Shown one piece after another: positions 2,394 through 24,032 of a DNA stretch of 33,325 bases; the stretch's first letter is position 1; every line of letters starts with the position of its first letter. The stretch covers positions 1 through 33,325 of the forward strand of contig JAAYVM010000178.1 of NCBI GenBank assembly GCA_012517145.1, in the 5' to 3' direction. The DNA comes from Acholeplasmataceae bacterium. GTDB lineage: Bacteria > Bacillota > Negativicutes > Acidaminococcales > Acidaminococcaceae. The position numbers and the translations under genes are program-made. Under the pieces are notes generated by a model. The model searched no databases, was not told the DNA's origin, and saw nothing but the letters and a program-made list of their open reading frames with translations.

Positions 2394-3536
2394 TCATTTC
2401 TTTATGTCATTAGTCAAATATTTGGCACATTCAAGTGCAGCATCCCAGCCTTCATCAAAAGCCCACGCGACCATGCCGCCGCCTCTTCGAGCATCACCTG
2501 CTGCGAACACACCAGGTTCAGCTGCCAGGAAAGAACCGCTGACATTGGCAATGGTTCCCAAAGGTGTTTTCTTCACGCCAAACTTTTCGAAAACAACAGG
2601 TTCCGGTCCGCTGAAACCCAACGCCAATATTACCATCTGTACCGGTAAAACTAATGTTGTTCCTTCAATTTCCTTAGCAATAGGCATACCGCTGTCAGTA
2701 CGTCCCCACTCTACCCGGCACAGCTCTGCACCGCTTACGTTACCTTTATCATCGCCAAGCAAACGTTTTACCTTGGTATTATATTGCAGAGAAACATCTC
2801 CTTTGACCAGTTCGCAGAAACCTTCTTGACTGATTCTTGCCATGTTGCAATCCTGCAGTTCCACCTGCAGAATTGAACGTGCGCCATGCGACAATGCCAA
2901 CGCTGCACAATCGGCACCTGTATCACCGCCACCGATAATCAGGACGTCTTTGCCTTCTGAACTAAGAAAAGTACCCGGCACAAGCTGCCGTTCAAGCAGG
3001 CTTCTGGTAGTAGAGATTAAAAAGTCTTTGGCATAATAAATACCGGTCAATTCATTACCGGGCAATTTTAAAGGTCGTGGCTGCGAGCTGCCGGTGCAGA
3101 TCACTACCGCCGCGTACTGCTTTCTAATATCTTCCCAGCTGATAGCAGTGCCAACAGCGGCGTTAAGGCGAAATTGAACGCCAGCTTCTTCTAAACTCTT
3201 TATTTTAGACAACAATATTTCTTTGGGCAGCTTGATATTCGGCACACCATACATCAAAAGGCCGCCAGGCCTGTCATCCCGTTCAAACACTGTCACTTTA
3301 AATCCCAATTGATTTAATACATCACTGCAGCCTAGCCCAGCAGGTCCGGAACCAATTATGGCAACTTTTATTTCACCCTTAGCATGAGGAAACTTTGCTG
3401 TATTCACTTTATACGAAAATGCTTTTGTAAGAATATACTCCTCCAGCTCACGATCCTCTGCCCACACTTTCATACGTTCAGGCAAAGCCAGCTGTAAAAA
3501 TGCTTCTCGCGTAACAGGAACAATATTATTTGCCAT
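2394..3536 (-). CDS. GltD-like FAD/NAD(P) oxidoreductase, no Fe-S domain
   Basis: The 380-residue protein belongs to the glutamate synthase small subunit family, flavoenzymes that pass electrons from NAD(P)H to a partner. Visible marks are the FAD-binding GSGPAG (62-67), the family signature YGVPNIKLPK (96-105), the NAD(P)-binding GGGDTGAD (202-209) and the C-terminal FAD motif FAAGDARRG. Usual GltD proteins are ~450-490 residues, with ~140 residues carrying two 4Fe-4S clusters before the FAD motif. Here only ~60 residues precede it and none is cysteine, so the cluster domain is absent. The start is well supported by AGGAGG seven bases upstream, so this is not a mis-called start. No gltB is near. 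The gene begins 24 bp after the PilX-like gene with no terminator between, so it may be read from the pilin operon promoter. Real glutamate synthase activity is doubtful. Confidence 0.85.
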   Translation of the reverse strand: MANNIVPVTREAFLQLALPERMKVWAEDRELEEYILTKAFSYKVNTAKFPHAKGEIKVAIIGSGPAGLGCSDVLNQLGFKVTVFERDDRPGGLLMYGVPNIKLPKEILLSKIKSLEEAGVQFRLNAAVGTAISWEDIRKQYAAVVICTGSSQPRPLKLPGNELTGIYYAKDFLISTTRSLLERQLVPGTFLSSEGKDVLIIGGGDTGADCAALALSHGARSILQVELQDCNMARISQEGFCELVKGDVSLQYNTKVKRLLGDDKGNVSGAELCRVEWGRTDSGMPIAKEIEGTTLVLPVQMVILALGFSGPEPVVFEKFGVKKTPLGTIANVSGSFLAAEPGVFAAGDARRGGGMVAWAFDEGWDAALECAKYLTNDIKK

Positions 3537-3560
3537 TTCAATGCCTCCTGAAAACTATTT

Positions 3561-5324
3561 TTAGCTGCTCCAATTACTAAATTCTATAGTACCTGTACTA
3601 CTCCCAGATCCACTAGAGCCACCACCGCTATCATCATTTATCGTTATTGTAGTAGCAGAACCTAAATTAATATTACCATCAGCTGCAATAATAGAACCTG
3701 ATATGCTTAAAGATCCCGAAGTTGTGATGTCATTGCCCTCACCTTTTGTATAAAGCAATGTGTTAGTTCCTAGCAAAGAATTGTTGCCAGAAAGACTAAT
3801 ATCTCCATTTGACACAATTTTTACCGATGAACCAGTAATATGCATCCCGCTATTGCTGGCTGTCAAATTTCCATTGGAATAAACATTTACAATACCAGTA
3901 CTAGAATCAATGTTAATACCAGCACCGCTGCTTTCAAAAGTTGATCCAGTTAAAATATTCACAGTTCCCGTGCCATTACCTAGTATTTTTATTCCAGCTG
4001 CCGTATCTGTTATTTTCCCATTAACCAAAATATTTATATCCCCTGTTGCCGGTCTTGTGATGTTCAAACCTGAACTTGTAACAGCCAAATTTCCATCAAC
4101 AACAAAGTTTATATTACCCGAACTGACCCCAGTAACTTTGATTATTTGGTTAACTAATAAATTGCCTCCGACATTAAAAGTGACATTGCCTCCAGCTGGG
4201 CCATTAACGGTAAGTCCTGAACCTGAAGTAGAAAGATTTCCAGTAACATTAATTACAATATTATCGGCATTAGGAGCATTGATTGTGAATGCTCTAGCTT
4301 CCATTTTGCCAATTACGTTAAACACAAGATTTCCAGTACCACTAAAATTAATTATCGTACCATTTCCGCTACTATTGGAATAATAATCACCATAAATAGA
4401 AATTACTACGTATCCGTTGTCAGGTTTGCTAAATTTAAGAGTTCCATTATAAATCGGTGAAGGCATACCACTTGATAAGTAATATTTTGTATTTGCAGAT
4501 AGAGTATATGTCGTAAAACCATTATCACTGGTATATTGTGGAGAAGGCAAACTTATACCAGAAGAGTAATTCTGCGTGTAGCTGCTAATATTCGTCGCTG
4601 CACTAAAGGCAGGCAACGAAGTTATGGTAGTCGCGTCAGGAGTGAAAACATATTCGTTTCCAGACCAAGGTTTAAGCTTGTTTTTCAAAGGTCCATCATA
4701 CCATTGGTTGCCTATCATCCATACTGGAATATCCGTTCCAACTGTTGGTTTATTATAGTAATAAATATTTTTGTCATCATCTAAAGTTGGTAATGTAGAT
4801 ATTTTAATATTAGCTGCTAACACATCACCATTAATTACTTTAAGTGAATTACCAATATTAGCTGTGTTTCCAGCATAAATTGCCGGCGAAGAATCACTGC
4901 CAGTATTTATATATGCTATAACTTTAACAGTTTTTGAATAATTATTAACCTTACCGACCGACTGAATCAAATATTTACTGCCGCTTGTTAGCGCGATTCC
5001 GTCTTCAATTGGTGATGAACCTGCCTTACCGGAAGAATCTATCGGATAAATCGTAATTTTATAAGTTTCTCCGTCTGCAAACGTCAATTCTTGATTTCCT
5101 CGTGCCCAGCTCCAATCCGTATTGCTGGTATTGTTCAAAATCTGCGCAGCAGCATATTTAACCCCAGCTTCAGCAGCATATTGGGCTTCAACACCATCGT
5201 TATTAATAGAAGTAAAATTCAGTTCAGCCCCTACACGAGGTATTACTGCTCCCGTCAGAAGAAGCAAAAACGCCATTATAAGCAAGCTAATTGCACTAAT
5301 ATAACCACTGTTGTTTTTCTTCAC
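3561..5324 (-). CDS. PilX-like minor pilin with beta-solenoid repeats
   Basis: The predicted protein is about 587 residues. The N-terminus (KKNNSG|YISAISLLIMAFLLLL) is a type IV prepilin-like leader with a Gly before the hydrophobic helix. Position 5 of the mature protein is not Glu, as in PilX/GspK-type tip subunits. Residues ~40-320 are a globular region (AAEAGVKYAAAQIL matches PilX-type proteins). Residues ~330-510 form a regular tandem repeat: eight copies of a G-N-hydrophobic-x-hydrophobic strand followed by GNL or GKI turns, spaced 23-25 residues, the look of a right-handed beta-helix. A Gly/Ser linker (~566-578) precedes the C-terminal GTIEFSNWSS. The start is GTG at 5324 with GGTGAT upstream; GTG at 5333 is the alternative. 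It is the third gene of a pilin operon, 32 bp after the PilW-like gene. The likely role is a tip adhesin on a pilus; this is inference. Confidence 0.8.
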   Translation of the reverse strand: MKKNNSGYISAISLLIMAFLLLLTGAVIPRVGAELNFTSINNDGVEAQYAAEAGVKYAAAQILNNTSNTDWSWARGNQELTFADGETYKITIYPIDSSGKAGSSPIEDGIALTSGSKYLIQSVGKVNNYSKTVKVIAYINTGSDSSPAIYAGNTANIGNSLKVINGDVLAANIKISTLPTLDDDKNIYYYNKPTVGTDIPVWMIGNQWYDGPLKNKLKPWSGNEYVFTPDATTITSLPAFSAATNISSYTQNYSSGISLPSPQYTSDNGFTTYTLSANTKYYLSSGMPSPIYNGTLKFSKPDNGYVVISIYGDYYSNSSGNGTIINFSGTGNLVFNVIGKMEARAFTINAPNADNIVINVTGNLSTSGSGLTVNGPAGGNVTFNVGGNLLVNQIIKVTGVSSGNINFVVDGNLAVTSSGLNITRPATGDINILVNGKITDTAAGIKILGNGTGTVNILTGSTFESSGAGINIDSSTGIVNVYSNGNLTASNSGMHITGSSVKIVSNGDISLSGNNSLLGTNTLLYTKGEGNDITTSGSLSISGSIIAADGNINLGSATTITINDDSGGGSSGSGSSTGTIEFSNWSS

Positions 5325-5356
5325 AATAATCACCGGACTTTCTTAAGTAACATCAA

Positions 5357-5866
5357 TCAGTTTGACAGATTAAGCAGCTTTACCCTGCTAGTAATATTAG
5401 TAGCAGGCCTGTCACTATACGCCACGTCATTAATTGTCAAGTCAATTAGAAGCATTGTAGCATCGTTCGCGTCACGAGAAAATATTATGCCACTATCTGC
5501 AATCATGCCATTTGCTATTTTTTTAATATTACTGCTATCTTTGTCAATAAAAATTGCGTTTTTTGCATTATCATCTTTTGCAATATATATATTATAAACC
5601 GTGCCATCTGAAGTTTCCAATTGCAGCTGATTACTAGGCGTGGATGTCGTTGGTAAATCAATTTTGCTGCCATACCTTGCAATCTCTTCAATCTGATTAA
5701 CAGCATCTCTTGCCACTGATAAACTATTAGCCTTTGACAAATTATATTGTGAAGACATTAGTCCTGATGATAATAATCCAGCTACAGCTCCAAAAATTAA
5801 CAATATTATCAACATGCCAATCATTATTTCCGGTAAGGTATAGCCGCAAGCAGCCTTGTTTTTCAT
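5357..5866 (-). CDS. PilW-like type IV minor prepilin
   Basis: The 169-residue protein has the classic prepilin signature MKNKAACG|YTLPEIMIGMLIILL: short basic leader, Gly before the cleavage site, and Glu at mature position 5, followed by the ~20-residue hydrophobic helix. The remainder (LARDAVNQIEEIARYGS-type region, then NQLQLETSDGTVYNIYI) resembles PilW/GspJ-like minor pilins that prime pilus assembly. It should be cleaved by a prepilin peptidase; none is encoded in this window. The start at 5866 has AGAGGAAAG upstream. It lies 13 bp after the PilV-like gene and 32 bp before the PilX-like gene, in one operon. No pilus motor, secretin or platform gene is nearby, so it must work with machinery encoded elsewhere. 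Confidence 0.85.
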   Translation of the reverse strand: MKNKAACGYTLPEIMIGMLIILLIFGAVAGLLSSGLMSSQYNLSKANSLSVARDAVNQIEEIARYGSKIDLPTTSTPSNQLQLETSDGTVYNIYIAKDDNAKNAIFIDKDSSNIKKIANGMIADSGIIFSRDANDATMLLIDLTINDVAYSDRPATNITSRVKLLNLSN

Positions 5867-5879
5867 GATGCTTTCCTCT

Positions 5880-6311
5880 TTATTTAGTATAGTAATAAGA
5901 GTTTAAAATTACACTTTGATCTTTGCCAGAATTGCTATCTTTCCAGGTAACAACAACATTCAGCTTTCTTAACTTAGCATTAGAGTTATTAGGTTGCGAA
6001 GCGGAAATAGTCCTGGAAAAACCACTGGTTGCTACAGGAAAATCAGTATTTGAAAGAGCTTGATCTACTATAGTTTGAGTAACAGGTATTGTGCTGCCGT
6101 CATATTTTTTGAAATACTCCAGCGACTCTTTCGCCAAATATGTTGCTTTAGTTTTATCAGAAGACATAATAGATACACCTGTGGCCTTAGTAAAAGTTAA
6201 AGCTAGTGCAACTAAACCGATTGCCACTATTAATACCGCCACCATGCCGTCAACCAGCATAAAACCTCTTTTATCAGTTAAACTTTTGAAGTTACGAACG
6301 CTTGGTCTCAT
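5880..6311 (-). CDS. PilV-like type IV minor prepilin
   Basis: The 143-residue protein has a prepilin leader ending DKRG|FMLVDGMVAVLIVAIGL, with the hydrophobic helix directly after it. Position 5 of the mature protein is Asp (F-M-L-V-D) where nearly all pilins have Glu; the acidic character is kept. The body contains YLAKESLEYFKKYDG and ends in a strand-rich part (KLRKLNVVVTWKDSNSGKDQSVILNSYYY) typical of PilV/GspI-like pseudopilins, in which a CxxxW or VxVTW strand is common. It is the first gene of the three-pilin operon, so the operon promoter should lie in the AT-rich 6312-6393 gap. The ribosome binding site is the GGGG/AAGGA cluster just before the ATG. Confidence 0.8.
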   Translation of the reverse strand: MRPSVRNFKSLTDKRGFMLVDGMVAVLIVAIGLVALALTFTKATGVSIMSSDKTKATYLAKESLEYFKKYDGSTIPVTQTIVDQALSNTDFPVATSGFSRTISASQPNNSNAKLRKLNVVVTWKDSNSGKDQSVILNSYYYTK

Positions 6312-6393
6312 TCCTTGTTCCCCGCAATCAATCTAGCATTATTCCAAGAAAATTCTAATATCTAATAAAATTATTATAACATAAAAAATACTG

Positions 6394-6426
6394 CAAAAAA
6401 GCGGTTCAAAATATAATGAACCGCTT
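6394..6426 (-). terminator. Rho-independent terminator of the M48 gene
   Basis: On the minus strand the stem GCGGTTCA/TGAACCGC (forward 6401-6408 and 6417-6424) is followed by a run of six T. It sits 10 bp beyond the M48 stop and separates that transcript from the pilin operon. Confidence 0.85.
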
Positions 6427-6435
6427 AATTATCAA

Positions 6436-7467
6436 TTATTTCTGTAAAGCCCAGTTCTGAAGTTTAGCCGCTACTGCTCCTGCGTAACTGCTGATGGAAT
6501 CATAACCTGCCGCATCCTGCTCATATACTCTCAAAACATGGATATCATCATAATAGATATCCGAGAAATAGCTGTCATCAACTGTCAGGAAACGTGTTTC
6601 ATCGACAGGTCCTCTCTTTTTGGCAAGATACAAAGCGCCAGCCATCATCTTCGCCCTATACGCAGGTTTGTCGCTGTTGTAGGTCTGACTGACTTTAAAC
6701 TGCCAGCTGCCATCTTTTACGGTCGCCGTACCGTCTTCAGCAATAGCAACCGTCGGAGTGATATTCATCTTAGCCAGTGCCTTATTGACGCGCTCGATTC
6801 TTACTTCCGGTTCCGGGTGTGTGGAGAAGAGTCCAAAACCAGGATTGCCTTTGGCATCTGCCAGATCCTGTAGCTTGCTGACCGTAATCAGCATACTGTA
6901 AGGATTAAAACCAGCCTTATTGGTCAGCGCAAAACCTTGTTCATCAGCCTCGCGTTCATCAGAACGGCTATAGCCAGCCATCAGAGCCTGCATGGTCGCG
7001 TCAGCCAGAATAAACCCCTGGCCTTTCGTAAGTATCAATGTCAGGAGTGTCAAAGCCAGCTGCTTTTCTACTTGTTTGACAGAATGTCGTTTGACGATAT
7101 GACCGACTTCATGGCCTAAAACACCGGCAAGTTCATCATCAGAAGGCATGAAATCAAGCAAACCTTTAAAAACATAAATAAACCCTCCTGGAACTGCCAT
7201 AGCATTTACTTCGTCACTATTAAGAACTTTAAAAGAATACTCCAGGTCCTGTCTGCCGGAAACAGCTACAATGCGCTGCCCAATGTTGTTCACGCGTGCC
7301 TGCAAGTCATCATCCTGCACCACACCGTACTTGGCTTCCAGCTGGGCAGCTACATCTTTGCCCATGGCAATTTCCTGACTCTTGCTAATCAAACTAGCTT
7401 CTACTGGGGATTGCATGCCAAGCACACAACTGAAAATCATGAAAACTATCAATAATATCCTACGCAA
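6436..7467 (-). CDS. Secreted M48 family zinc metalloprotease
   Basis: The 343-residue protein has a signal peptide (MRRILLIVFMIFSCVLGMQS, likely cut near VEAS) and an M48 peptidase domain with the zinc site HEVGH at 119-123 and the third-ligand motif EREADEQG (Glu ~173). This is the BepA/LoiP-like exported kind, which trims or degrades misfolded envelope proteins, rather than the HtpX kind with several membrane helices. A ~110-residue tail after the protease domain (from about 235) has alternating strand/helix character and no motif I know. The start is a TTG: the codon at 7467 has a perfect AGGAGGTGA 8-9 bases upstream. It starts 36 bp after the CoA-transferase-like gene with no terminator between, so both may share a transcript. 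It ends at its own hairpin. Confidence 0.9.
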   Translation of the reverse strand: MRRILLIVFMIFSCVLGMQSPVEASLISKSQEIAMGKDVAAQLEAKYGVVQDDDLQARVNNIGQRIVAVSGRQDLEYSFKVLNSDEVNAMAVPGGFIYVFKGLLDFMPSDDELAGVLGHEVGHIVKRHSVKQVEKQLALTLLTLILTKGQGFILADATMQALMAGYSRSDEREADEQGFALTNKAGFNPYSMLITVSKLQDLADAKGNPGFGLFSTHPEPEVRIERVNKALAKMNITPTVAIAEDGTATVKDGSWQFKVSQTYNSDKPAYRAKMMAGALYLAKKRGPVDETRFLTVDDSYFSDIYYDDIHVLRVYEQDAAGYDSISSYAGAVAAKLQNWALQK

Positions 7468-7503
7468 AGGTTGTCACCTCCTATAACGTTTGTACGCACT
7501 TCT

Positions 7504-8655
7504 TCAAATTACGTGGTTTTCTTTTAGCCTGGTAATCTCTTCTGCAGTATAGCCGAGACTTTTCAAAATTTCTTCTCGGTGCTCACCTAATCTTGGTGCC
7601 CTCCGATCAATTGCTCCCGGCGTTGCGGAAAGTTTGATGGCCGGTTGTAGATACTTAATTTCACCTATATCCTCATCTCTTACGCCGATCATGCCACTTT
7701 CCGAAGTTAGCTCGCTATTTAGTGCTTCAGCAAGACTGCAGACCGGGGTAACGCAAAAATCTCTGTCGTCAATTAATGCAAGCCACTCCTGCTGTGTCTT
7801 CAGTAAGAAAACTTCTGCCAGCGCTTGTCCCAGTTCCTCGCCATGAGCAAAATCAAACTGCCTGTTTCCCAAGTCATCGCGGCCAATTAAACGGCAGAGT
7901 TCCTGCCAGAATTTCGGTTCAATCGTTCCCACCGTAAGATATTTGCCATCCTTAGTCTTATATATATTGTAGTAATGGGCAATTCTACCGAATGGTTCTG
8001 CACCCGTTTCCTGACAGCCCCACAAACTGCTGACAGCCGTAGCCTCCATGCTGAGGGCTGTGTTGTAAAGAGAAACATCAACGTATTGCCCCCGGCCCGT
8101 TCTTTCCCGTGCGAATAAAGCCAGTAAAATACCGCTGACCGCATTCATACTGCCGCCAAGAGCCGAAACTTGGATATCGGCAACGCACGCACTGCCTACA
8201 TCGTCTAAAGAAGTAATGCCGGCAAGCCCCACGATATTCAGATCGTGAGCCGGTTTATGCTTATATTTTCCCGTCTGTCCAAAGCCTGTTATTGAGCAAT
8301 AAACAAGGCGTGGATTTTCTTTGCTTATAGTTTCGTAATCAAGACCAAGTTTTGCCATGAAGCCTGGGCGAAAACCTTCAAGAACTACATCGGCCGTCAA
8401 AATTAATTTGTGCAGGATGCTTTTGCCTGCCTCCGTACGCAAATCAATTGCCATCCCTTTTTTATTACGATTGAGAGCCAGATGCCAATAACTCATATCC
8501 TTCTCTTTTTGGGGAATAAATTGTCTGGTATTATCGCCAGCTATGTCATCAATTTTAATTACTTCAGCGCCAAAATCTCCAAGCATCATACCGCAGTACT
8601 GGCCGGGCAGCCATTTGGAAAGATCTATGACTTTGATACCTTCTAAAGCTTTCAT
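7504..8655 (-). CDS. Class III CoA-transferase / acyl-CoA racemase family
   Basis: The 383-residue protein is of the CaiB/BaiF family, which either moves CoA between organic acids or epimerises 2-methylacyl-CoA esters. It starts MKALEGIKVIDLSKWLPGQY, carries VVLEGFRPGFMAKLGLDYE and CSITGFGQTG, the AHDLN motif whose Asp is the usual catalytic residue, and GRGQYVDVSLYNTAL. The AHDLN-x-x-GLAG version and the length (383, nearer 360-380 than 400-430) point slightly to the alpha-methylacyl-CoA racemase branch, but substrate cannot be read from sequence. The start at 8655 is chosen because AGGAGG lies 6 bases upstream; a longer in-frame version from 8691 lacks a site. It is divergent from thiW across a 141-bp gap and is followed by the M48 gene. 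Confidence 0.88.
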   Translation of the reverse strand: MKALEGIKVIDLSKWLPGQYCGMMLGDFGAEVIKIDDIAGDNTRQFIPQKEKDMSYWHLALNRNKKGMAIDLRTEAGKSILHKLILTADVVLEGFRPGFMAKLGLDYETISKENPRLVYCSITGFGQTGKYKHKPAHDLNIVGLAGITSLDDVGSACVADIQVSALGGSMNAVSGILLALFARERTGRGQYVDVSLYNTALSMEATAVSSLWGCQETGAEPFGRIAHYYNIYKTKDGKYLTVGTIEPKFWQELCRLIGRDDLGNRQFDFAHGEELGQALAEVFLLKTQQEWLALIDDRDFCVTPVCSLAEALNSELTSESGMIGVRDEDIGEIKYLQPAIKLSATPGAIDRRAPRLGEHREEILKSLGYTAEEITRLKENHVI

Positions 8656-8736
8656 CTGTTTCCTCCTGCTGAAATTCTGTTCCAAAAACAATTATCTTAG
8701 TAACCATTCTACATAAATCAGCTTTTCCCTTTTCGG

Positions 8737-15419: not shown

Positions 15420-15485
15420 ATCTTCATCTACACCATATTACTGTAATTGTTTAAAAATCATCTATAAATAGGAGTGGTTATTTTC

Positions 15486-17162
15486 ATGAAAAAAAAAGGT
15501 GTTTTAAGTACTTGCATGTTAGCTTTAATAATCGGTGTTATGCCATCAACTGCTTTTGCTGACATCCCAACAACCGTAATTCCATCAGCTGGTTCACTGC
15601 TTAGCGAGCTTGAACCGGAGAGGCATATCACGCCCAGACCAACCAAACCAGAAATCGATGTCAAGCTCCCTGTACCAGCTTCTGCTGTACAAACTGGCCG
15701 TATGCTGGTTAAAAATATTCGTTTTGTCTGTCAGGAAATGGATATCCAAAAGGAACTTGATTTTCTTACAGCCGATAAATTGAACAACAAATTATCTTTT
15801 GATGATATGCAGGAGCTGGCCCTTGCCGCTACCAAACACCTGCGCAGCCAAGGTTATATGACCGCTATTGTTTATATTCCTGAGCAAAAATTTGATGATT
15901 CCGCTACATTAAAGCTTAATGTCATTTTGGGTCGTTTTGGCGATATTGTATTAACCAATAAATCAGAACTTACCGACCAGAGGGTTCTCGGCTATACCTA
16001 TGAAATACGCCCCGGTCAGATTATAACTTCCAAAACACTCGATAAAACTCTTCTTATTTTGAATGAGATTCCCGGAATTATTGCCCGTGCCTCGTTAGAG
16101 CCCGGCAAACATCCAGGCACCGCCAACATTCACCTTGATGTTACAACGCTGGAAAAAGAAGGCGGCTATATTTCCTCTGACAATTACGGCAGTAAATCCA
16201 CAGGCAACTGGCGCTTTGGCGGCAATTACCACTATAATAACCTTTCGCATGTTGGTGACCAACTGCAGCTAAATTACTTGACCAGCACACATGACATGGA
16301 TAACTACAGCATCCAGTATGCCTTACCGCTTGGACGCGACGGGGCTACATCGCATATTGCCTATTCCCGCATGAACTATGGCTTGGGAGATAAATTTGCT
16401 TATATGAATGCCGACGGTTATGCTGATACTTTTGAGCTTGGTTTTACCGTCCCGATGTACCGTTCTTTAACACAAAGCTCTTTTTATGATGTAGTCTACC
16501 GCAATCGTCAGTTAACTGACAAAATGTTCGATGGCGTCTGGAACAGCGGCAAATCATCAGATGCAGTAGATTTAGGTTTCCATGGTTATTTGCGCGGCGA
16601 AAATTCATCTTTTACCTATGGTTTGACCCATACAACCGGGAAAATGTATATGGATTCAGATATAGCCCAAGCCACAGACCTTCTGGATACAGCGGGCTGG
16701 TTCAATAAGACTTATCTCAGTACATCCTTCATCCGACGCCTCGACGAACGTTGGAATGCTACACTGGCTGTCAGCGGTCAATATGCCTACAACAATCTTG
16801 ATTCTTCAGAAGATTTTTATGGTACCGGGCCTAATGGTGTAAGAGCCTTCTCCCAAGGTGAATTAAGCGGTGACAGCGGACTCTTAGGCACTTTGGAATT
16901 CACCTATACGACAGGCCAGCCAAAATTGCAGCTTACCGCATTTATTGATGCAGCAAGAATACGTTATAGCAAAGATCCCCTGCCGGGTAGTGGTGAAAAT
17001 TACCGTGACCTTGCTGGTGCCGGTCTCAGCCTGATTTGGAATGAGTCACGTGATCTCTACGCCCGTTTAGACTGGGCAACACCGATAGGTGACCATTGGT
17101 CAGAAACTGACAACGAACGCACCAACAATACCTGGTGGTTCCGTATTGTCAAACAGTTGTGA
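15486..17162 (+). CDS. TpsB outer-membrane transporter (ShlB/FhaC/HecB family)
   Basis: The predicted protein is 558 residues with signal peptide MKKKGVLSTCMLALIIGVM (cut after TAFA). A Pro-rich linker is followed by a POTRA region (about 65-215, VKNIRFVCQEMDIQ, LRSQGYMTAIVYIPEQ, then GRFGDIVLTN) and a C-terminal 16-strand barrel. The conserved loop-6 motif is present as GVRAFSQGELSGDSG, which reaches into the pore in this Omp85-related family. It exports the partner TpsA across the outer membrane, so the cell must have an outer membrane. AGGAG at 15470-15474 points to the ATG at 15486 rather than the GTG at 15474 inside that site. The TpsA gene starts 18 bp after its stop, the normal TPS layout. 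Confidence 0.93.
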   Translation: MKKKGVLSTCMLALIIGVMPSTAFADIPTTVIPSAGSLLSELEPERHITPRPTKPEIDVKLPVPASAVQTGRMLVKNIRFVCQEMDIQKELDFLTADKLNNKLSFDDMQELALAATKHLRSQGYMTAIVYIPEQKFDDSATLKLNVILGRFGDIVLTNKSELTDQRVLGYTYEIRPGQIITSKTLDKTLLILNEIPGIIARASLEPGKHPGTANIHLDVTTLEKEGGYISSDNYGSKSTGNWRFGGNYHYNNLSHVGDQLQLNYLTSTHDMDNYSIQYALPLGRDGATSHIAYSRMNYGLGDKFAYMNADGYADTFELGFTVPMYRSLTQSSFYDVVYRNRQLTDKMFDGVWNSGKSSDAVDLGFHGYLRGENSSFTYGLTHTTGKMYMDSDIAQATDLLDTAGWFNKTYLSTSFIRRLDERWNATLAVSGQYAYNNLDSSEDFYGTGPNGVRAFSQGELSGDSGLLGTLEFTYTTGQPKLQLTAFIDAARIRYSKDPLPGSGENYRDLAGAGLSLIWNESRDLYARLDWATPIGDHWSETDNERTNNTWWFRIVKQL

Positions 17163-17180: not shown

Positions 17181-20100
17181 ATGCAAATAGCTAAAAACCG
17201 CAATAAATTGGCTCTGCGTGTGACGTTATCATTGTTAATAGGCACAAGTCTTTATTTAGGTTCTGTTTCCACTACCTTCGCCGTTCCTGGCATCAATGAA
17301 CTACCTACAGGCGGAACGGTCGTAGTAGGCAGTGCAACAATTACCAACCCTTCTACGGGGCGAATGAACATTAATCAAGGAGCAACGACACCTTATGCAT
17401 TGATTAATTGGGAAAAATTCAATATTGGAGCCAATGCCTCCGTAAATATAACCCAGCATCAATCATCTGATGTCTTGGTAAATAACGTTGTCAGCAATAA
17501 TTTATCAGAAATATATGGCAAACTTAATGCCACAGGTAATGTTGTCCTGATCAATCCTAATGGTGTATTGTTCAGCGGCGCTAAAGTAAATGTTGGCGGA
17601 TTTGTAGCGTCAACGGCCAAACTCGCTGATGAAACTGCTACCTCTTTTCCTGGTTTTGCCACAGATGGCACAGTGCAAGGAAATATTGACGTTACCAATT
17701 CTACAATTAAAGCCGGTATTGGTGCCGTAATCGCCAATACCTCCGCCCTGAGCCTTCCTTCTGATTATGCTATTGGTCTAGGTGTTTTCAATGATGAAAT
17801 CAGACTTATCGCCAATGGCAATGTCAATATAAATGCCGGCACAACTCTGCAGGCGGTGGACCAGACTACGGTCACAACCGAAAACACTCTCGGTGTAGAA
17901 GAATACTCCGTAGCTGACAGTACCAGCACTTCACGTTCCCGTGTGCTCCTGAGATCAGATGCCAACGCTGATGATTACGGTACTGTAACTATGAACGGCA
18001 ACCCGGTAATTAATACCAGTACACTTGCCATCTATTATAATCCTGAAATTAAGGAAATAGCCACGACACAAGATGGCGTTCAATACTCAAAAAAGGATTA
18101 CACTAAAGAGCAAAATTTCTCCGGCCAATATACTTCAAATGCAACAACAGGCAAGCTTATCAGCGCTGATGCAGGACAAACTTATGCGCAGGCAACCCAA
18201 ACAGCCAGATCGGTTGCTGCTGTAAATGCTGACGCTTATATGTTAGTAAACAATATTGCACAGCTGCAGGATATCAGCGACGCTAATACCGGCAACTTAA
18301 ACGGCAAATATGCTCTTGGCAAAGACATCAATGCCACAGGCGATACTGCAGCCTTTTATGACCAAACGAACGGCATCTTATACCGTTCTGATAAAAATGG
18401 TAATATTGTCGCGGTGTCAACTTCTGATGGCGGTACTTTCACCGATGCCACGACCAAAGTTATTGCTGGCAAAACAATTACAAATACCGGCAGTACAATT
18501 TCTGACGGCACGTACAATTATAATGGCAGTACAACATCTGACTCTACCTATACTCTGGCTACCGATGGTTCCATCACAAGTTCAGTCTATAACCGCGATG
18601 CGACAGGCAATGTTATTATTCGTAACAGTGATGGCACAACAATCAGCGGCAATACCGTGAATACTGCCGGCAACACTTACAGCATTAGCGGTAATAGTGT
18701 CACTACCAATGGTGAAATGTACAATATTACCGCATCCACGGTTACCACGGTTCAAGGCGGGATTACCTATACCATAACGGGTAGTACAGTTACCGGCGTT
18801 GATGCTTCCAATAACCCTGTTACGATTCCTTCAGATACACAAACTCAGCTTTTGGGTTTGGCTAGTTCGGTAAAGGATGCGCAATCAACCTACACCTCAG
18901 CCCAAACAGTCAACACGGCGATGAATACCTTTGCAACAGGTGCCAATGCCGCAAAGCCTGCTTTAGCTACAGCGCTGACCCAATTTAATGCTTTAAATAC
19001 CACAGCAATCAATCAACCAGCAAAAAGCATTGATTCTTCCAAATGGAATGATAATAAAGGCTTTAATCCAATCGGAGATGCAGATACCGGCAAAGCATTT
19101 AAGGGTTCTTTTGACGGTTATGACGGTGACGCAGTCCACGGCATCAGCAATTTGACCATTAAGCGTACCGACGAAGATAATGTAGGTTTGTTCGGTGTAA
19201 CTGACGGCTCTTCTCTCAGGCGCGTCATTTTGAACAATGCCGTCATTGAAGGGCAAAGCAATGTCGGGGCTTTAGTCGGGCAAATGAAAGGAACCACTGT
19301 CAGCAGTTCCGCTACTTACGGCGGCTCAGTCACCAGCACTACTGCAGGATCAGCCAATATAGGCGGTCTGGTTGGCCTTGCAACCGACGCCAGTAACATT
19401 AATTCAGCTTACAATAGTGCTGCTGTCACCGGCAAAAATGATGACGGCAGTGTTAATATCTCCAATGTAGGCGGCATTGTTGGTCATTTGGACAATTCTA
19501 ATGTGAGCAGCGTAATCAACGCTGGTACCATTTATGGTGAAAAAAGCACTGGTGGGTTAGTTGGTAATGTGAATAACGATACTATGCCGACTAATACAAA
19601 AACACTGGCAAATTCCTATAACAAGGGACAAGTCAGCGGCATCGACAATACGGGCGGTATTGCAGGCGAAGCTACTAATGCCTCTTTTGATACGGTTTAT
19701 AACACGAATGAAGCTTCAACTTTAAGTGGCAATTTGGCGGCCTTAAATACTGGCAACGCAGCAATCAAAGCTTATTATGTTGGCAGCCAGAACCAAAGCA
19801 AATCCGGCAAGATAACCGGCACCGGTCAAAATACCGGCGGTTTAGTTGGCTTAGCAGAAAATACCACTATTGATAAAGCTTACAATGCCGGCAACGTAAC
19901 TGGCACCACGAACACTGGTGGCTTGGTTGGTCAAATGACGGGTGCGTCCGGCAAAATTACAAATGCTTATAATGCCGATAACAATACGGTAATTCGTGAA
20001 ACATTTGCGAGTGGCTTACCTGATGCCGTGAAAAATATAACCAGCAGCAGCAATGTAACAGAAGAAGATGTTCGCTACTATAGTTTCTATTCTGTAGACA

Positions 20101-23100
20101 GTTCAGGCAATCCAACCTATTATTATTTTATTCCCACACTGGAAAACGGTACTGTCGGAAAAAGTGATACTCAAGGCGCCAAAGGCTATTATGTGCTGGC
20201 AGACGGAAGTATCGTTAATCCTGATAACTCAACTAATAACACCAATTACGTGCCCGCTGAAGATCGTTATTATATGAATCGCATGGGCTATCTTGATGCC
20301 AATGTAACAGGCATAGAAAATACCGGCGGTCTTGTTGGCAATATGACAAATGGTATGATCGACACCACGTATAACGCCGGCACAGTAACCGGTACAGCCG
20401 CCAGCAGCGGCGGTCTGGTGGGAACAATGTCAGGCGGCACGTTAAAAAATTCTTTTTACGTCACAGGCACTGATGCCAGTACAGGCAAAGAATTTTCTGG
20501 TCAAACAAAAGCTGTCGGCAATCAAATCAGCGGAACAGTTGCCTCGAATATCAAAAGCGAAGGCCAAGACATTAAACTGATGCGGCAAGGCACTAATGTT
20601 AAATCGCTCGGTGACAATGCTACCAACAATACCAATTGGATTGGAATTATACAAGATACTACTCAAGGCGGTTTGTATGTCTATACAACAACACCTACAG
20701 ACGTTGATGCCATTATCAATGGAAGTACTGTTCGCTACTTCACCCCAGACGAAGGTCTTTTTACTTTGGCTGCCAACGGCAATCACGTGGCAATCTTACA
20801 GCCTGTAGAAGGAACTACAGATAAGTTTAAGAGCTTGGAAAATGGCAAAACTTATACCTTAACGACTGATGGCAGCGGAACTAACACTTTTAAAGCTGAC
20901 GGAGAAGCTGATATTACTATTTATAAACGAATGGTTTCCAGCAACCAGGGTGATAACTGGTTAATTTATGAAAACAGCTCGCTACCGCTTTTACAGGCTT
21001 ACCTGAATAACACTGGTCTGGACCGAGTATTTGAATATGACGGCACTACGCATAATCTGGTTACACAGGATGTAGATCACCTCTACGGCCGAGCTGACTT
21101 TAATGACGGTGCCGGTAAGAATGTCTGGACTGATGGCTATACCGAATCAGGAGAACATCCGGGATCCAGTCAATATCGTTATGACCGCTCTTCTATCTGG
21201 TCTCCTCAGCATGCTTACCAAATTGATCCCAAAGCACAGATTGTTATTTTGCCGAAGGACATGACCGTCACAGTAACAGGCAACAAAACTTACGGCAACT
21301 ATGCACTTACCGGTTATTATGTAGCAGTCGGCAGCAATTACTACAAGGTAATAGATACCAACGATTTAGTCACCTATCCTGATGGTTATTATTATGAGAA
21401 AGTTATTTTGACAAACGGAGAAACAATTGCCGCCAAAGCGAATGCCGAAGGCAAATATCTAGTTACCATTAATGGATTCATGCAAGGTGAGGGAATCTTG
21501 ACAGACGGTCAAACGAAAGACGTTATGTCCGGCCTCGTAACCATGATGAAAAATTCTACTGAAGGTAATAATTTTGTCTACGAAGATATCTCTAACGGTA
21601 CGAAAGATACCCTCCAACTGGACGCCGGCAATTACAACTTCTCCTCAGGTTCCTTAGGCGGGCTCGAAGCTGACCACAGAAACTATAATATTAGTTATGC
21701 AGGTCAGGAAACCATTGGCAAAGCTAATCTCTACTACACTGTCGACGGCGTTCGCGATTATGGCAAAACCAATCTTGACCGCAATGGTGAATACAAGTTC
21801 ACGTTGGTCGGAATTGATGACGCCGTTGGAACCAATGGGGCCTATACCAGTACCGAAGGCTATCTGAAAGCATGGGATCAGGACAAATTGGTCGGTATGA
21901 CCGCCAACGACGTTACCGCCTTCCTTAATAAAAACGGCTTAACGTATTCTATCCAAGGCAAAGCCGATGGTGGCTCAGTCATAACAATTGACAATAAAAC
22001 CCATGTAATCGTGGATAGCACAGGGAAAGTAACCAGCTATGATGTGACGTCATTTGGCCCCAACCCTGCATTTAACTCTGCCGCCCTAAGCAAAAACTAC
22101 AACCTGGTGTGGAAAGCAGAAAATGCTAATACGACTCTAAAAACAAATACCGCTCAGAATACGTTCGGCACTACGGCAGCCACCGTTGCTAAAAGCACGA
22201 TGACGTTGAAACCTGTTGATTTAAATGTCACTATTAACGGCGAACGCAACTATGGCGACAACATGTCAACAAGTGACAGTATCATTTACGCTTCAACAGC
22301 CAGTGATGGCAAATGGGCAGTCAATGCCAACGGTTATGCCAGTAACAGCCGGGATAATTCCAGTACGGTCATCAACAAAACTGTTCTGCAAAGTTTATTG
22401 AACCTGGTTGAAGGATTACCGGAAAACACGCTTAATAAAATTGATGCAACAACCTTTGTTAAACGTGATGGATCTGGTAATGTAACCGTCTATGATTTAA
22501 AGGCCGGCACAGAATACACAGGAAGCTTGATTGATGTAGCCACTTTGTTCACCAAAACAGATGGTAACGACAATCGTACTGTTGTCTTTGATCCTTCTGC
22601 TACCAATAATCAGATACTCAATTCTGCTTATAAATATGATTATCTTGTCAAAAATGGCAACCATAGTTTAAAAATAAAACCGATAGATTTAACTATTTTG
22701 ACAAACGGCTCCAAAATATATGGTCAAAATAATGATGACATTGCTTATGGTTACACTTATAACGGGTTAAAAGATTTTGACACTGACGACCATGATACCT
22801 ATCTCAAGAATAATACCACTTATACCAGTTCGCCTGATAGCCGTATCACTTCTACCAGCGATGCAGGTGTTTACGGTACTCAAAATGGTGACGGCCAAAA
22901 GGCAATTAACACAACAATACAAAATACCGGTTCAACAGAATACAACAATATAGCTAATAATTACAACATTAAATTCGCCGATACTTTAACCATCAACAAA
23001 CGGCAGTTAACCGTCAACACCGAAGGCAGCAAGACATACGGCAGCGCTAATCCGACCACCGGTTTTACTTACACTTCCAATACGGGTACCGCTGACAATA

Positions 23101-24032
23101 CAACCGGTTTGATGACCTGGGACAATACTTTGCTGCAAAATTCTACAACCGTTGTCGAAGGTCTTGATGAACGTTCCAATGCCGGCGTCTATGGCACGGA
23201 AGGCTCGCAAATACCTAACAACAAAGTCCTGAATACTACAACTGTCGCTAATTTAAACAAAAACTATGATATTACACACACTGATAAGTTTACAATTAAC
23301 AAGAAGGACCTGACCTACGCTTACACCGGCACGCGCGAATATGGCCGAGACAACGCCACCGGCAGCTATAATAATCCAATTTTTAATGGTTTAACAGCTT
23401 GGGATTCAGCAACTTCAGCTGACTATACGCTAAGCAATGAAGCTGAACGTACTACAAACGTTGGCACCCATTCAGACAAGTTGAAAGTAGAACTCACTGG
23501 CGATGTTTTCAAAAATTATAATATTTCCGGCACAACCGCTTTAGAAATTACTAAAGCAGATTTCACTTATGTGGCCGACCACACTGAATACTGGCAGGGG
23601 CAACAAATACCAGCACAAACCGGACGCGTCTTCAACAGTCATGGTGAAGATGTGAGTGACCTTGTTGGCTCTGTCGCCTGGATGACGTCTGCTACACGCT
23701 ACTCATCTCCTGGTTATTATGAAATTATCGGCAGCGGCTCGGCTGACAACAGCGGCAATTATAATGTTTTTCAATATGGCAACACTGGTGCATATAGTGA
23801 CTTCGAGCCAGCTTTTACCGACGCCCGTGATAATTTCACTGCACTGAAAATCAAAGCCAACCAAACCTTAAATTATGGTGAAATTTATGGTTCTTGGGGA
23901 AATTACCGTAAACCGCAATTGGATATCCGTTACTTAACTTCTAAATCTACTGAAGGTATCAATCGTGATTGGTCAGATAGTGCACAAGATAAAGGTACGT
24001 TTACCTTTATCAGTAACTCGCAAAAGAAATAA
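17181..24032 (+). CDS. TpsA filamentous haemagglutinin-like exoprotein
   Basis: The predicted protein is 2,283 residues, exported by the TpsB just upstream. Signal peptide residues 1-34 (ending STTFA). The TPS secretion domain (about 35-270) carries the hallmark NPNG at 125-128, followed by VLFSGAKVNVGGFVAST. Residues ~667-1095 hold GLUG-type repeats (NVGLFG, IGGLVG, TGGLVG, SGGLVG, each with an AYN or SYN strand). Residues ~1350-2170 hold at least six MBG/YG-type modules, each with a G-x-K-x-YG start (KTYGNY, RDYGKT, RNYGDN, KIYGQN, KTYGSA, REYGRD) and ending in I-x-K-x-x-L/F, plus a divergent seventh. Two long inserts, ~387-618 and ~940-1030, break the repeat pattern. No LPXTG, SLH or other C-terminal anchor is seen, so it is either released or held by TpsB. 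AAGGAG lies 9 bases before the ATG. Likely a fibrous adhesin; the target is unknown. Confidence 0.92.
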   Translation: MQIAKNRNKLALRVTLSLLIGTSLYLGSVSTTFAVPGINELPTGGTVVVGSATITNPSTGRMNINQGATTPYALINWEKFNIGANASVNITQHQSSDVLVNNVVSNNLSEIYGKLNATGNVVLINPNGVLFSGAKVNVGGFVASTAKLADETATSFPGFATDGTVQGNIDVTNSTIKAGIGAVIANTSALSLPSDYAIGLGVFNDEIRLIANGNVNINAGTTLQAVDQTTVTTENTLGVEEYSVADSTSTSRSRVLLRSDANADDYGTVTMNGNPVINTSTLAIYYNPEIKEIATTQDGVQYSKKDYTKEQNFSGQYTSNATTGKLISADAGQTYAQATQTARSVAAVNADAYMLVNNIAQLQDISDANTGNLNGKYALGKDINATGDTAAFYDQTNGILYRSDKNGNIVAVSTSDGGTFTDATTKVIAGKTITNTGSTISDGTYNYNGSTTSDSTYTLATDGSITSSVYNRDATGNVIIRNSDGTTISGNTVNTAGNTYSISGNSVTTNGEMYNITASTVTTVQGGITYTITGSTVTGVDASNNPVTIPSDTQTQLLGLASSVKDAQSTYTSAQTVNTAMNTFATGANAAKPALATALTQFNALNTTAINQPAKSIDSSKWNDNKGFNPIGDADTGKAFKGSFDGYDGDAVHGISNLTIKRTDEDNVGLFGVTDGSSLRRVILNNAVIEGQSNVGALVGQMKGTTVSSSATYGGSVTSTTAGSANIGGLVGLATDASNINSAYNSAAVTGKNDDGSVNISNVGGIVGHLDNSNVSSVINAGTIYGEKSTGGLVGNVNNDTMPTNTKTLANSYNKGQVSGIDNTGGIAGEATNASFDTVYNTNEASTLSGNLAALNTGNAAIKAYYVGSQNQSKSGKITGTGQNTGGLVGLAENTTIDKAYNAGNVTGTTNTGGLVGQMTGASGKITNAYNADNNTVIRETFASGLPDAVKNITSSSNVTEEDVRYYSFYSVDSSGNPTYYYFIPTLENGTVGKSDTQGAKGYYVLADGSIVNPDNSTNNTNYVPAEDRYYMNRMGYLDANVTGIENTGGLVGNMTNGMIDTTYNAGTVTGTAASSGGLVGTMSGGTLKNSFYVTGTDASTGKEFSGQTKAVGNQISGTVASNIKSEGQDIKLMRQGTNVKSLGDNATNNTNWIGIIQDTTQGGLYVYTTTPTDVDAIINGSTVRYFTPDEGLFTLAANGNHVAILQPVEGTTDKFKSLENGKTYTLTTDGSGTNTFKADGEADITIYKRMVSSNQGDNWLIYENSSLPLLQAYLNNTGLDRVFEYDGTTHNLVTQDVDHLYGRADFNDGAGKNVWTDGYTESGEHPGSSQYRYDRSSIWSPQHAYQIDPKAQIVILPKDMTVTVTGNKTYGNYALTGYYVAVGSNYYKVIDTNDLVTYPDGYYYEKVILTNGETIAAKANAEGKYLVTINGFMQGEGILTDGQTKDVMSGLVTMMKNSTEGNNFVYEDISNGTKDTLQLDAGNYNFSSGSLGGLEADHRNYNISYAGQETIGKANLYYTVDGVRDYGKTNLDRNGEYKFTLVGIDDAVGTNGAYTSTEGYLKAWDQDKLVGMTANDVTAFLNKNGLTYSIQGKADGGSVITIDNKTHVIVDSTGKVTSYDVTSFGPNPAFNSAALSKNYNLVWKAENANTTLKTNTAQNTFGTTAATVAKSTMTLKPVDLNVTINGERNYGDNMSTSDSIIYASTASDGKWAVNANGYASNSRDNSSTVINKTVLQSLLNLVEGLPENTLNKIDATTFVKRDGSGNVTVYDLKAGTEYTGSLIDVATLFTKTDGNDNRTVVFDPSATNNQILNSAYKYDYLVKNGNHSLKIKPIDLTILTNGSKIYGQNNDDIAYGYTYNGLKDFDTDDHDTYLKNNTTYTSSPDSRITSTSDAGVYGTQNGDGQKAINTTIQNTGSTEYNNIANNYNIKFADTLTINKRQLTVNTEGSKTYGSANPTTGFTYTSNTGTADNTTGLMTWDNTLLQNSTTVVEGLDERSNAGVYGTEGSQIPNNKVLNTTTVANLNKNYDITHTDKFTINKKDLTYAYTGTREYGRDNATGSYNNPIFNGLTAWDSATSADYTLSNEAERTTNVGTHSDKLKVELTGDVFKNYNISGTTALEITKADFTYVADHTEYWQGQQIPAQTGRVFNSHGEDVSDLVGSVAWMTSATRYSSPGYYEIIGSGSADNSGNYNVFQYGNTGAYSDFEPAFTDARDNFTALKIKANQTLNYGEIYGSWGNYRKPQLDIRYLTSKSTEGINRDWSDSAQDKGTFTFISNSQKK

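Follow-up and report, generated by a model that had tools for sequence, protein, structure and literature searches.

The window, by which we mean the whole 33,325-nucleotide stretch of DNA that was analysed, encodes a modular minor pilin that is the last member of a GspI-GspJ-GspK-like gene trio (Table 1), as the first-pass annotation had proposed when it described a minor pilin in a three-pilin operon. The reading frame is open throughout; a GTG at 5333 gives the length listed in Table 1, and an alternative in-frame GTG at 5324, the start chosen in the first-pass annotation, gives 587 residues. When the family profile was run against the organism's own genome, it matched this single K gene. 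The J-like neighbor scores 19.5 bits with N_methyl (just under the cut-off) and 17.3 bits with TIGR02532 (over the cut-off). In all five loci that we read (the window and genomes G002, G004, G005 and G007), an M48 metalloprotease lies directly upstream of the trio. Elsewhere in the window, a ShlB/FhaC-type transporter (15474-17162) is followed by a 2283-aa open reading frame without a Pfam match (17181-24032), and these two genes likely form a two-partner secretion pair whose large exoprotein is unrecognised.

Table 1. Features of the modular pilin gene and of its neighbors in the window (residues are those of the 590-aa protein)
Feature	Residues	Position	Strand	Basis
K/ComZ-type modular minor pilin, 590 aa		3561..5333	-	ORF, family profile
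Prepilin-like leader	1-10	5304..5333	-	Gly at -1, sequence
Long N-terminal helix	9-67	5133..5309	-	AF2 with 7 sequences, alignment
Pilin beta-meander, three strands	89-98, 119-129, 132-142	4908..5069	-	AF2, profile match to ComZ
First part of insert	144-292	4458..4904	-	pLDDT mostly < 50
Beta-solenoid (modelled)	298-566	3636..4442	-	AF2 models, periodicity
DUF7305 (PF23981) match		3645..3923	-	Best stretch 24 bits, 33.3 bits summed with neighboring stretches, cut-off 27
Gly/Ser linker	567-579	3597..3635	-	Sequence
Terminal strand TGTIEFSNWSS	580-590	3564..3596	-	AF2 strand 580-584, short homologues
GspJ/PilW-like minor pilin, 169 aa, no extra module		5357..5866	-	N_methyl, TIGR02532, position
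GspI/PilV-like minor pilin, 143 aa		5880..6311	-	TIGR02523 PilV E 1.6e-6, below cut-off; position
M48 metalloprotease (BepA/LoiP-like)		6436..7467	-	Conserved neighbor of trio
CoA-transferase family III		7504..8691	-	Conserved upstream flank
Pyr_redox_2 oxidoreductase		2394..3536	-	Downstream flank; its counterpart in the same place in G004 is 60% identical

The protein begins with the features of a minor pilin: a basic prepilin leader, a Gly at position -1, a hydrophobic helix and a long alpha-1 (...VKKNNSG/YISAISLLIMAFLLLLTGAVIP, the stroke marking the putative cleavage site). The leader Gly is invariant in an alignment of 78 relatives, and the family signature AQYAAEAG sits in the long N-terminal helix. 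Position +5 is Ile instead of Glu (YISAI); the N-terminus had no match to PilX_N (E 1) or to other Pfam or NCBIfam prepilin models, and in the NCBIfam search the protein did not match NF037980 T2SS_GspK. The prepilin-type N-terminus recognised earlier is borne out by the leader, the Gly and the hydrophobic helix. Because Glu5 is missing and the family models pass over the N-terminus, cleavage by prepilin peptidase is best described as presumptive.

The central feature of the protein is a repeat region that spans residues 325-560, in which we count ten consecutive units of 19-25 residues. Eight of these units are 23-25 residues long, in agreement with the eight repeats of that length first noticed. 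Self-similarity of the region peaks at lags of 25, 24 and 49 residues (z 3.9, 3.4 and 3.5), and its maximum was reached by 0.35% of 2000 shuffles for residues 321-570 and by 0.1% for residues 320-566. By the same test, periodicity is absent from the pilin part and from the 150-320 region; a spectral test restricted to hydrophobic residues found no period. The regularity of the repeat is modest but real.

Residues 298-566 are modelled as a beta-solenoid, in line with the domain proposed in the first-pass annotation, and neither a disordered nor a globular fold is predicted for the repeat region. Without an alignment, AF2 gives a pLDDT of mostly 76-93 across residues 331-560 and places approximately three short strands in each 24-residue turn, as in a triangular beta-solenoid. 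With an alignment of seven sequences, the solenoid is predicted at a pLDDT of mostly 77-90 and extends to residue 566, accompanied by a single helix (9-67), three pilin strands and a strand at 580-584 past the Gly/Ser linker. The first part of the insert (144-292) resembles neither a pilin nor a regular solenoid and has low confidence in both models. When the first model was compared with the PDB by Foldseek, the top matches included the type IV pilus minor pilin 7o5y (prob 0.98) and the beta-helical antifreeze protein 3p4g, which weakly favors the predicted fold; neither model had a match below E 0.001, and the 50 best matches listed did not include ComZ. A dihydrolipoyl dehydrogenase returned by single-sequence phmmer against the PDB was set aside as a chance match.

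AF2 may favor solenoids on repeats, and one could suppose that the region is simply a low-complexity stretch, with no solenoid, that the predictor has over-regularised. Its composition, rich in Gly, Asn and Thr, and the missing fold match below E 0.001 would suit such a stretch. However, the periodicity exceeds that of shuffled sequences, and the match to the DUF7305 profile together with comparable inserts in many genomes indicates a domain rather than a drifted linker, so we consider this explanation hardly credible and retain the beta-solenoid as the predicted fold.

We found that the protein belongs to a broad family. With the single window protein as query against the genome contigs, no relative was found, and the solenoid is an orphan at that level. 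An alignment of nine N-termini was too variable for scanning, and a three-sequence alignment was used instead; a profile of nine pilin modules (A2) matched in 64 of 252 sampled Negativicutes genomes. After removal of one spurious I-type hit, the set held 85 distinct members, 29 of them with 130-173 aa and 56 with 322-646 aa, and none between. Members are thus either bare or carry an insert of 160-480 residues, without intermediates. The family also extends to Omnitrophota. In related genomes, relatives are roughly 25-35% identical over the first ~150 residues, and their remainders are divergent.

Two Pfam families describe parts of this architecture. PilX_N (PF14341) is matched by 30 of 78 relatives at E 0.01, and several relatives match DUF7305; in the window protein the solenoid matches DUF7305, whereas the N-terminus does not match PilX_N. 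The DUF7305 match passes its cut-off when stretches are summed but falls short of it in its best single stretch (Table 1), and it is silent in a whole-protein hmmscan. None of 14 control genomes, Thermus composti among them, had a DUF7305 match. The literature searched contains no mention of DUF7305, which Pfam lists as an uncharacterised family without an assigned function.

The short members of the family also suggest how the solenoid is joined to the pilin. The first-pass annotation had correctly seen the Gly/Ser linker and had overlooked the conserved strand beyond it. A short hydrophobic C-terminal strand is common to short members (...QINIVSWNYH, ...MSILSQWEH) and long members (...TMEISSWRE, ...STITFGNWKSL, and ...GTIEFSNWSS in the window). 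A Trp falls within the last 2-6 residues in 23 of 29 short and 37 of 56 long members, where 5% would be expected, a count that is uncorrected for relatedness. The large K proteins of the syntenic relatives G002, G005 and G007 are without this Trp-containing last strand. In the model built with seven sequences, strand 580-584 has a pLDDT of about 53 and its partner strand is not readable. Because the solenoid-less relatives (130-173 aa) close with the same strand, the most economical reading is a probable insertion of the solenoid into an otherwise complete pilin module, so that the domain earlier called C-terminal would instead lie ahead of the last pilin strand.

A profile of the pilin modules of the 78 relatives (A5), searched against 177,635 PDB sequences, ranked ComZ (6qvi) first at E=2.7e-7, with an alignment that spans the AEAG part of the helix through the end of the pilin strands; the nine-sequence profile had already placed ComZ first in the PDB (E=0.18). 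Titin hits of the A5 profile were summed weak Ig repeats (best stretch i-E 5.4) and were rejected. In the solved structure of ComZ of Thermus thermophilus, a GspK-like tip pilin, a beta-solenoid lies between the last two strands (PMC6561018). ComZ binds DNA and also a partner minor pilin, PilA2. The window protein shares with ComZ a GspK-like module without Glu5, a large beta-solenoid (modelled here) and a place beside other minor pilin genes. The two differ in that the insertion before the last strand is solved in ComZ and inferred here, in the size of the solenoid (about 270 residues here versus a ComZ domain of ~380 residues described as irregular) and in host (Negativicutes versus Deinococcota). 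The connection to ComZ is made through the pilin-module profile; common ancestry of the solenoids is not established, because DUF7305 is absent from the controls, Thermus composti included.

The first-pass annotation had treated the fusion as one not known as a described class, a claim that does not hold. ComZ is a fusion of just this kind (PMC6561018), modular pilins are a named and widespread class in which ComZ is cited (PMC8179133), and Pfam has PilX_N and DUF7305. Within that class, PilB and PilC of Streptococcus sanguinis similarly graft a ligand-binding module onto a type IV pilin module, although theirs are a vWA and a lectin-like module, respectively, rather than a solenoid, and the PilB vWA domain comes after its pilin module, joined to it by a short loop, and does not interrupt the sheet (PMC8179133). 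GspK is alike in being third in an I-J-K trio, in lacking Glu5 and in carrying a domain inserted in the pilin fold, but its insert is alpha-helical and lies between strands 3 and 4 (PMC6561018), unlike the solenoid here. To this known architecture we add how widely it occurs, the reading of the solenoid as an insertion, a connection to DUF7305 and the comparison of loci.

The likeness to GspK raises the question of which machine the trio serves. The gene order I-J-K is that of GspI-J-K, the ComZ pilin module is closest to GspK (PMC6561018) and one relative weakly matches T2SS_GspK, all of which would fit a trio that caps the secretion pseudopilus of a type II secretion system and not a type IV pilus. 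We consider this very unlikely, as the machine encoded in the genome has PilT, PilM, PilN and PilO, which are typical of type IV pili, and the trio lies inside or beside the pil operon in G210, G216, G224 and G042. One contig of the organism's own genome encodes PilB (cut by the contig end), PilT, PilC, two pilins, PilD, PilM, PilN and PilO; two secretins, prepilin peptidases and ComEC are also present in the genome. With this set of components, the host filament is likely a retractile type IVa pilus. PilM occupies two open reading frames there (matching profile positions 1-118 and 182-337; L032:5448-6529, contig C63), possibly owing to a frameshift or an assembly error.

The trio recurs in other Negativicutes, as the first-pass annotation had suggested looking for: at least 9 of the 13 loci compared for gene context show a clean I-J-K order, which also occurs in Lucifera, in Pelosinus and in one Omnitrophota MAG. 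In two Omnitrophota MAGs (L049:1712-3991 and L051:4-2184), J-type proteins of 726-759 aa, far above the usual size, lie upstream of the K-type gene. Within the group of loci that includes the window (family f1), the block runs CoA-transferase, M48 protease, I, J, K. The sister genus G004 has a block bracketed in the same way (L128:2121-8054; CoA-transferase 63% and M48 protease 74% identical, with the oxidoreductase on the other side), yet its K is a bare 146 aa and its J is enlarged to 480 aa, as against a J of 169 aa and a K of 590 aa in the window (2394-8691). G002, G005 and G007 have enlarged versions of both J and K, and in J the addition is a PilJ_C domain (PF18223). Between the extra part of the G004 J protein and the K solenoids no homology was detected, so we make no claim that the module moved from K to J.

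Sequence divergence is often much greater in the insert than in the pilin module that carries it. G002 has three tandem K copies (L039:5369-9759) whose pilin modules are 61-72% identical and whose inserts are 24-46% identical; G210 and G216 share 76-90% identity in PilC, PilQ and PilN, 65% in the K pilin module and 31% in the insert. Close pairs lack such extra divergence of the insert (92/91, 90/86, 88/91 and 81/78), and for this reason inserts may change by replacement or in bursts rather than by a steadily faster clock. In G210 (L130) and G216 (L131), the pil operon contains one bare trio, and another trio, with the solenoid, adjoins the operon near aroB; in G224, about 5 kb separate a bare K from a solenoid K, so it is possible that these are alternative tips for one machine. 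We tentatively extend this to Negativicutes type IV pili in general, which might carry an exchangeable tip cassette: at one and the same locus, K, J, both or neither would bear a solenoid or another bulky module, tandem K genes or a second trio would provide alternative tips, and selection would favor new ligands.

The window protein is probably a ComZ-type tip receptor, a statement that leaves its ligand open, and its most likely role is at the pilus tip, as a receptor or adhesin whose ligand module can be exchanged. In the mechanism that we infer, processing would come first, with the leader trimmed by prepilin peptidase. The long helix would then pack with the adjacently encoded I- and J-type minor pilins in an initiation and tip complex, which PilB, PilT, PilC, PilA, PilM/N/O and the secretin, encoded elsewhere, would extend through the outer membrane. 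The beta-solenoid rod, which in three dimensions would sit in a loop of the pilin sheet ahead of the last strand, would be presented at the tip, where it would bind its ligand, and retraction by PilT would pull on the solenoid. The tip location named in the first-pass annotation is probable for a ComZ-type K subunit, since a large ComZ-like domain is difficult to accommodate within the body of the filament (an argument made in PMC6561018) and the same would hold for this solenoid.

Two functions come into question: besides acting as the adhesin named in the first-pass annotation, the protein could capture DNA, as ComZ does. For a competence pilus, the tip solenoid would be a DNA receptor that binds double-stranded DNA and delivers it by retraction to the secretin and ComEC; this variant falls under the same tip-receptor explanation and differs in the ligand. 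The nearest solved relative, ComZ, binds DNA (PMC6561018); ComEC, PilT and secretins are encoded in the genome, and a single K gene would serve whatever the pilus does. However, 10 of the 14 control genomes also have ComEC-family matches, so that their presence says little, and an invariant ligand does not predict rapid replacement of the insert or its absence at the G004 locus. The insert has a net negative charge in the window protein and in most relatives, which also weighs against DNA without excluding it, because ComZ is likewise without positive patches (PMC6561018). We therefore regard the DNA receptor as rather unlikely, and because inserts diverge or are replaced while their carrier stays, we lean toward an adhesin, with a variable surface or a glycan or cell ligand the somewhat more probable target.

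The literature found treats ComZ as an isolated oddity, whereas here its design appears as a family that is widespread in the Negativicutes and changes fast. The insert is present in most distinct members, and the breadth of the family suggests that solenoid-tipped pili are common. DUF7305 gains a likely setting as a type IV pilus tip module. The natural pairs of bare and inserted proteins, together with the tandem copies, provide material with which to test what the module binds.
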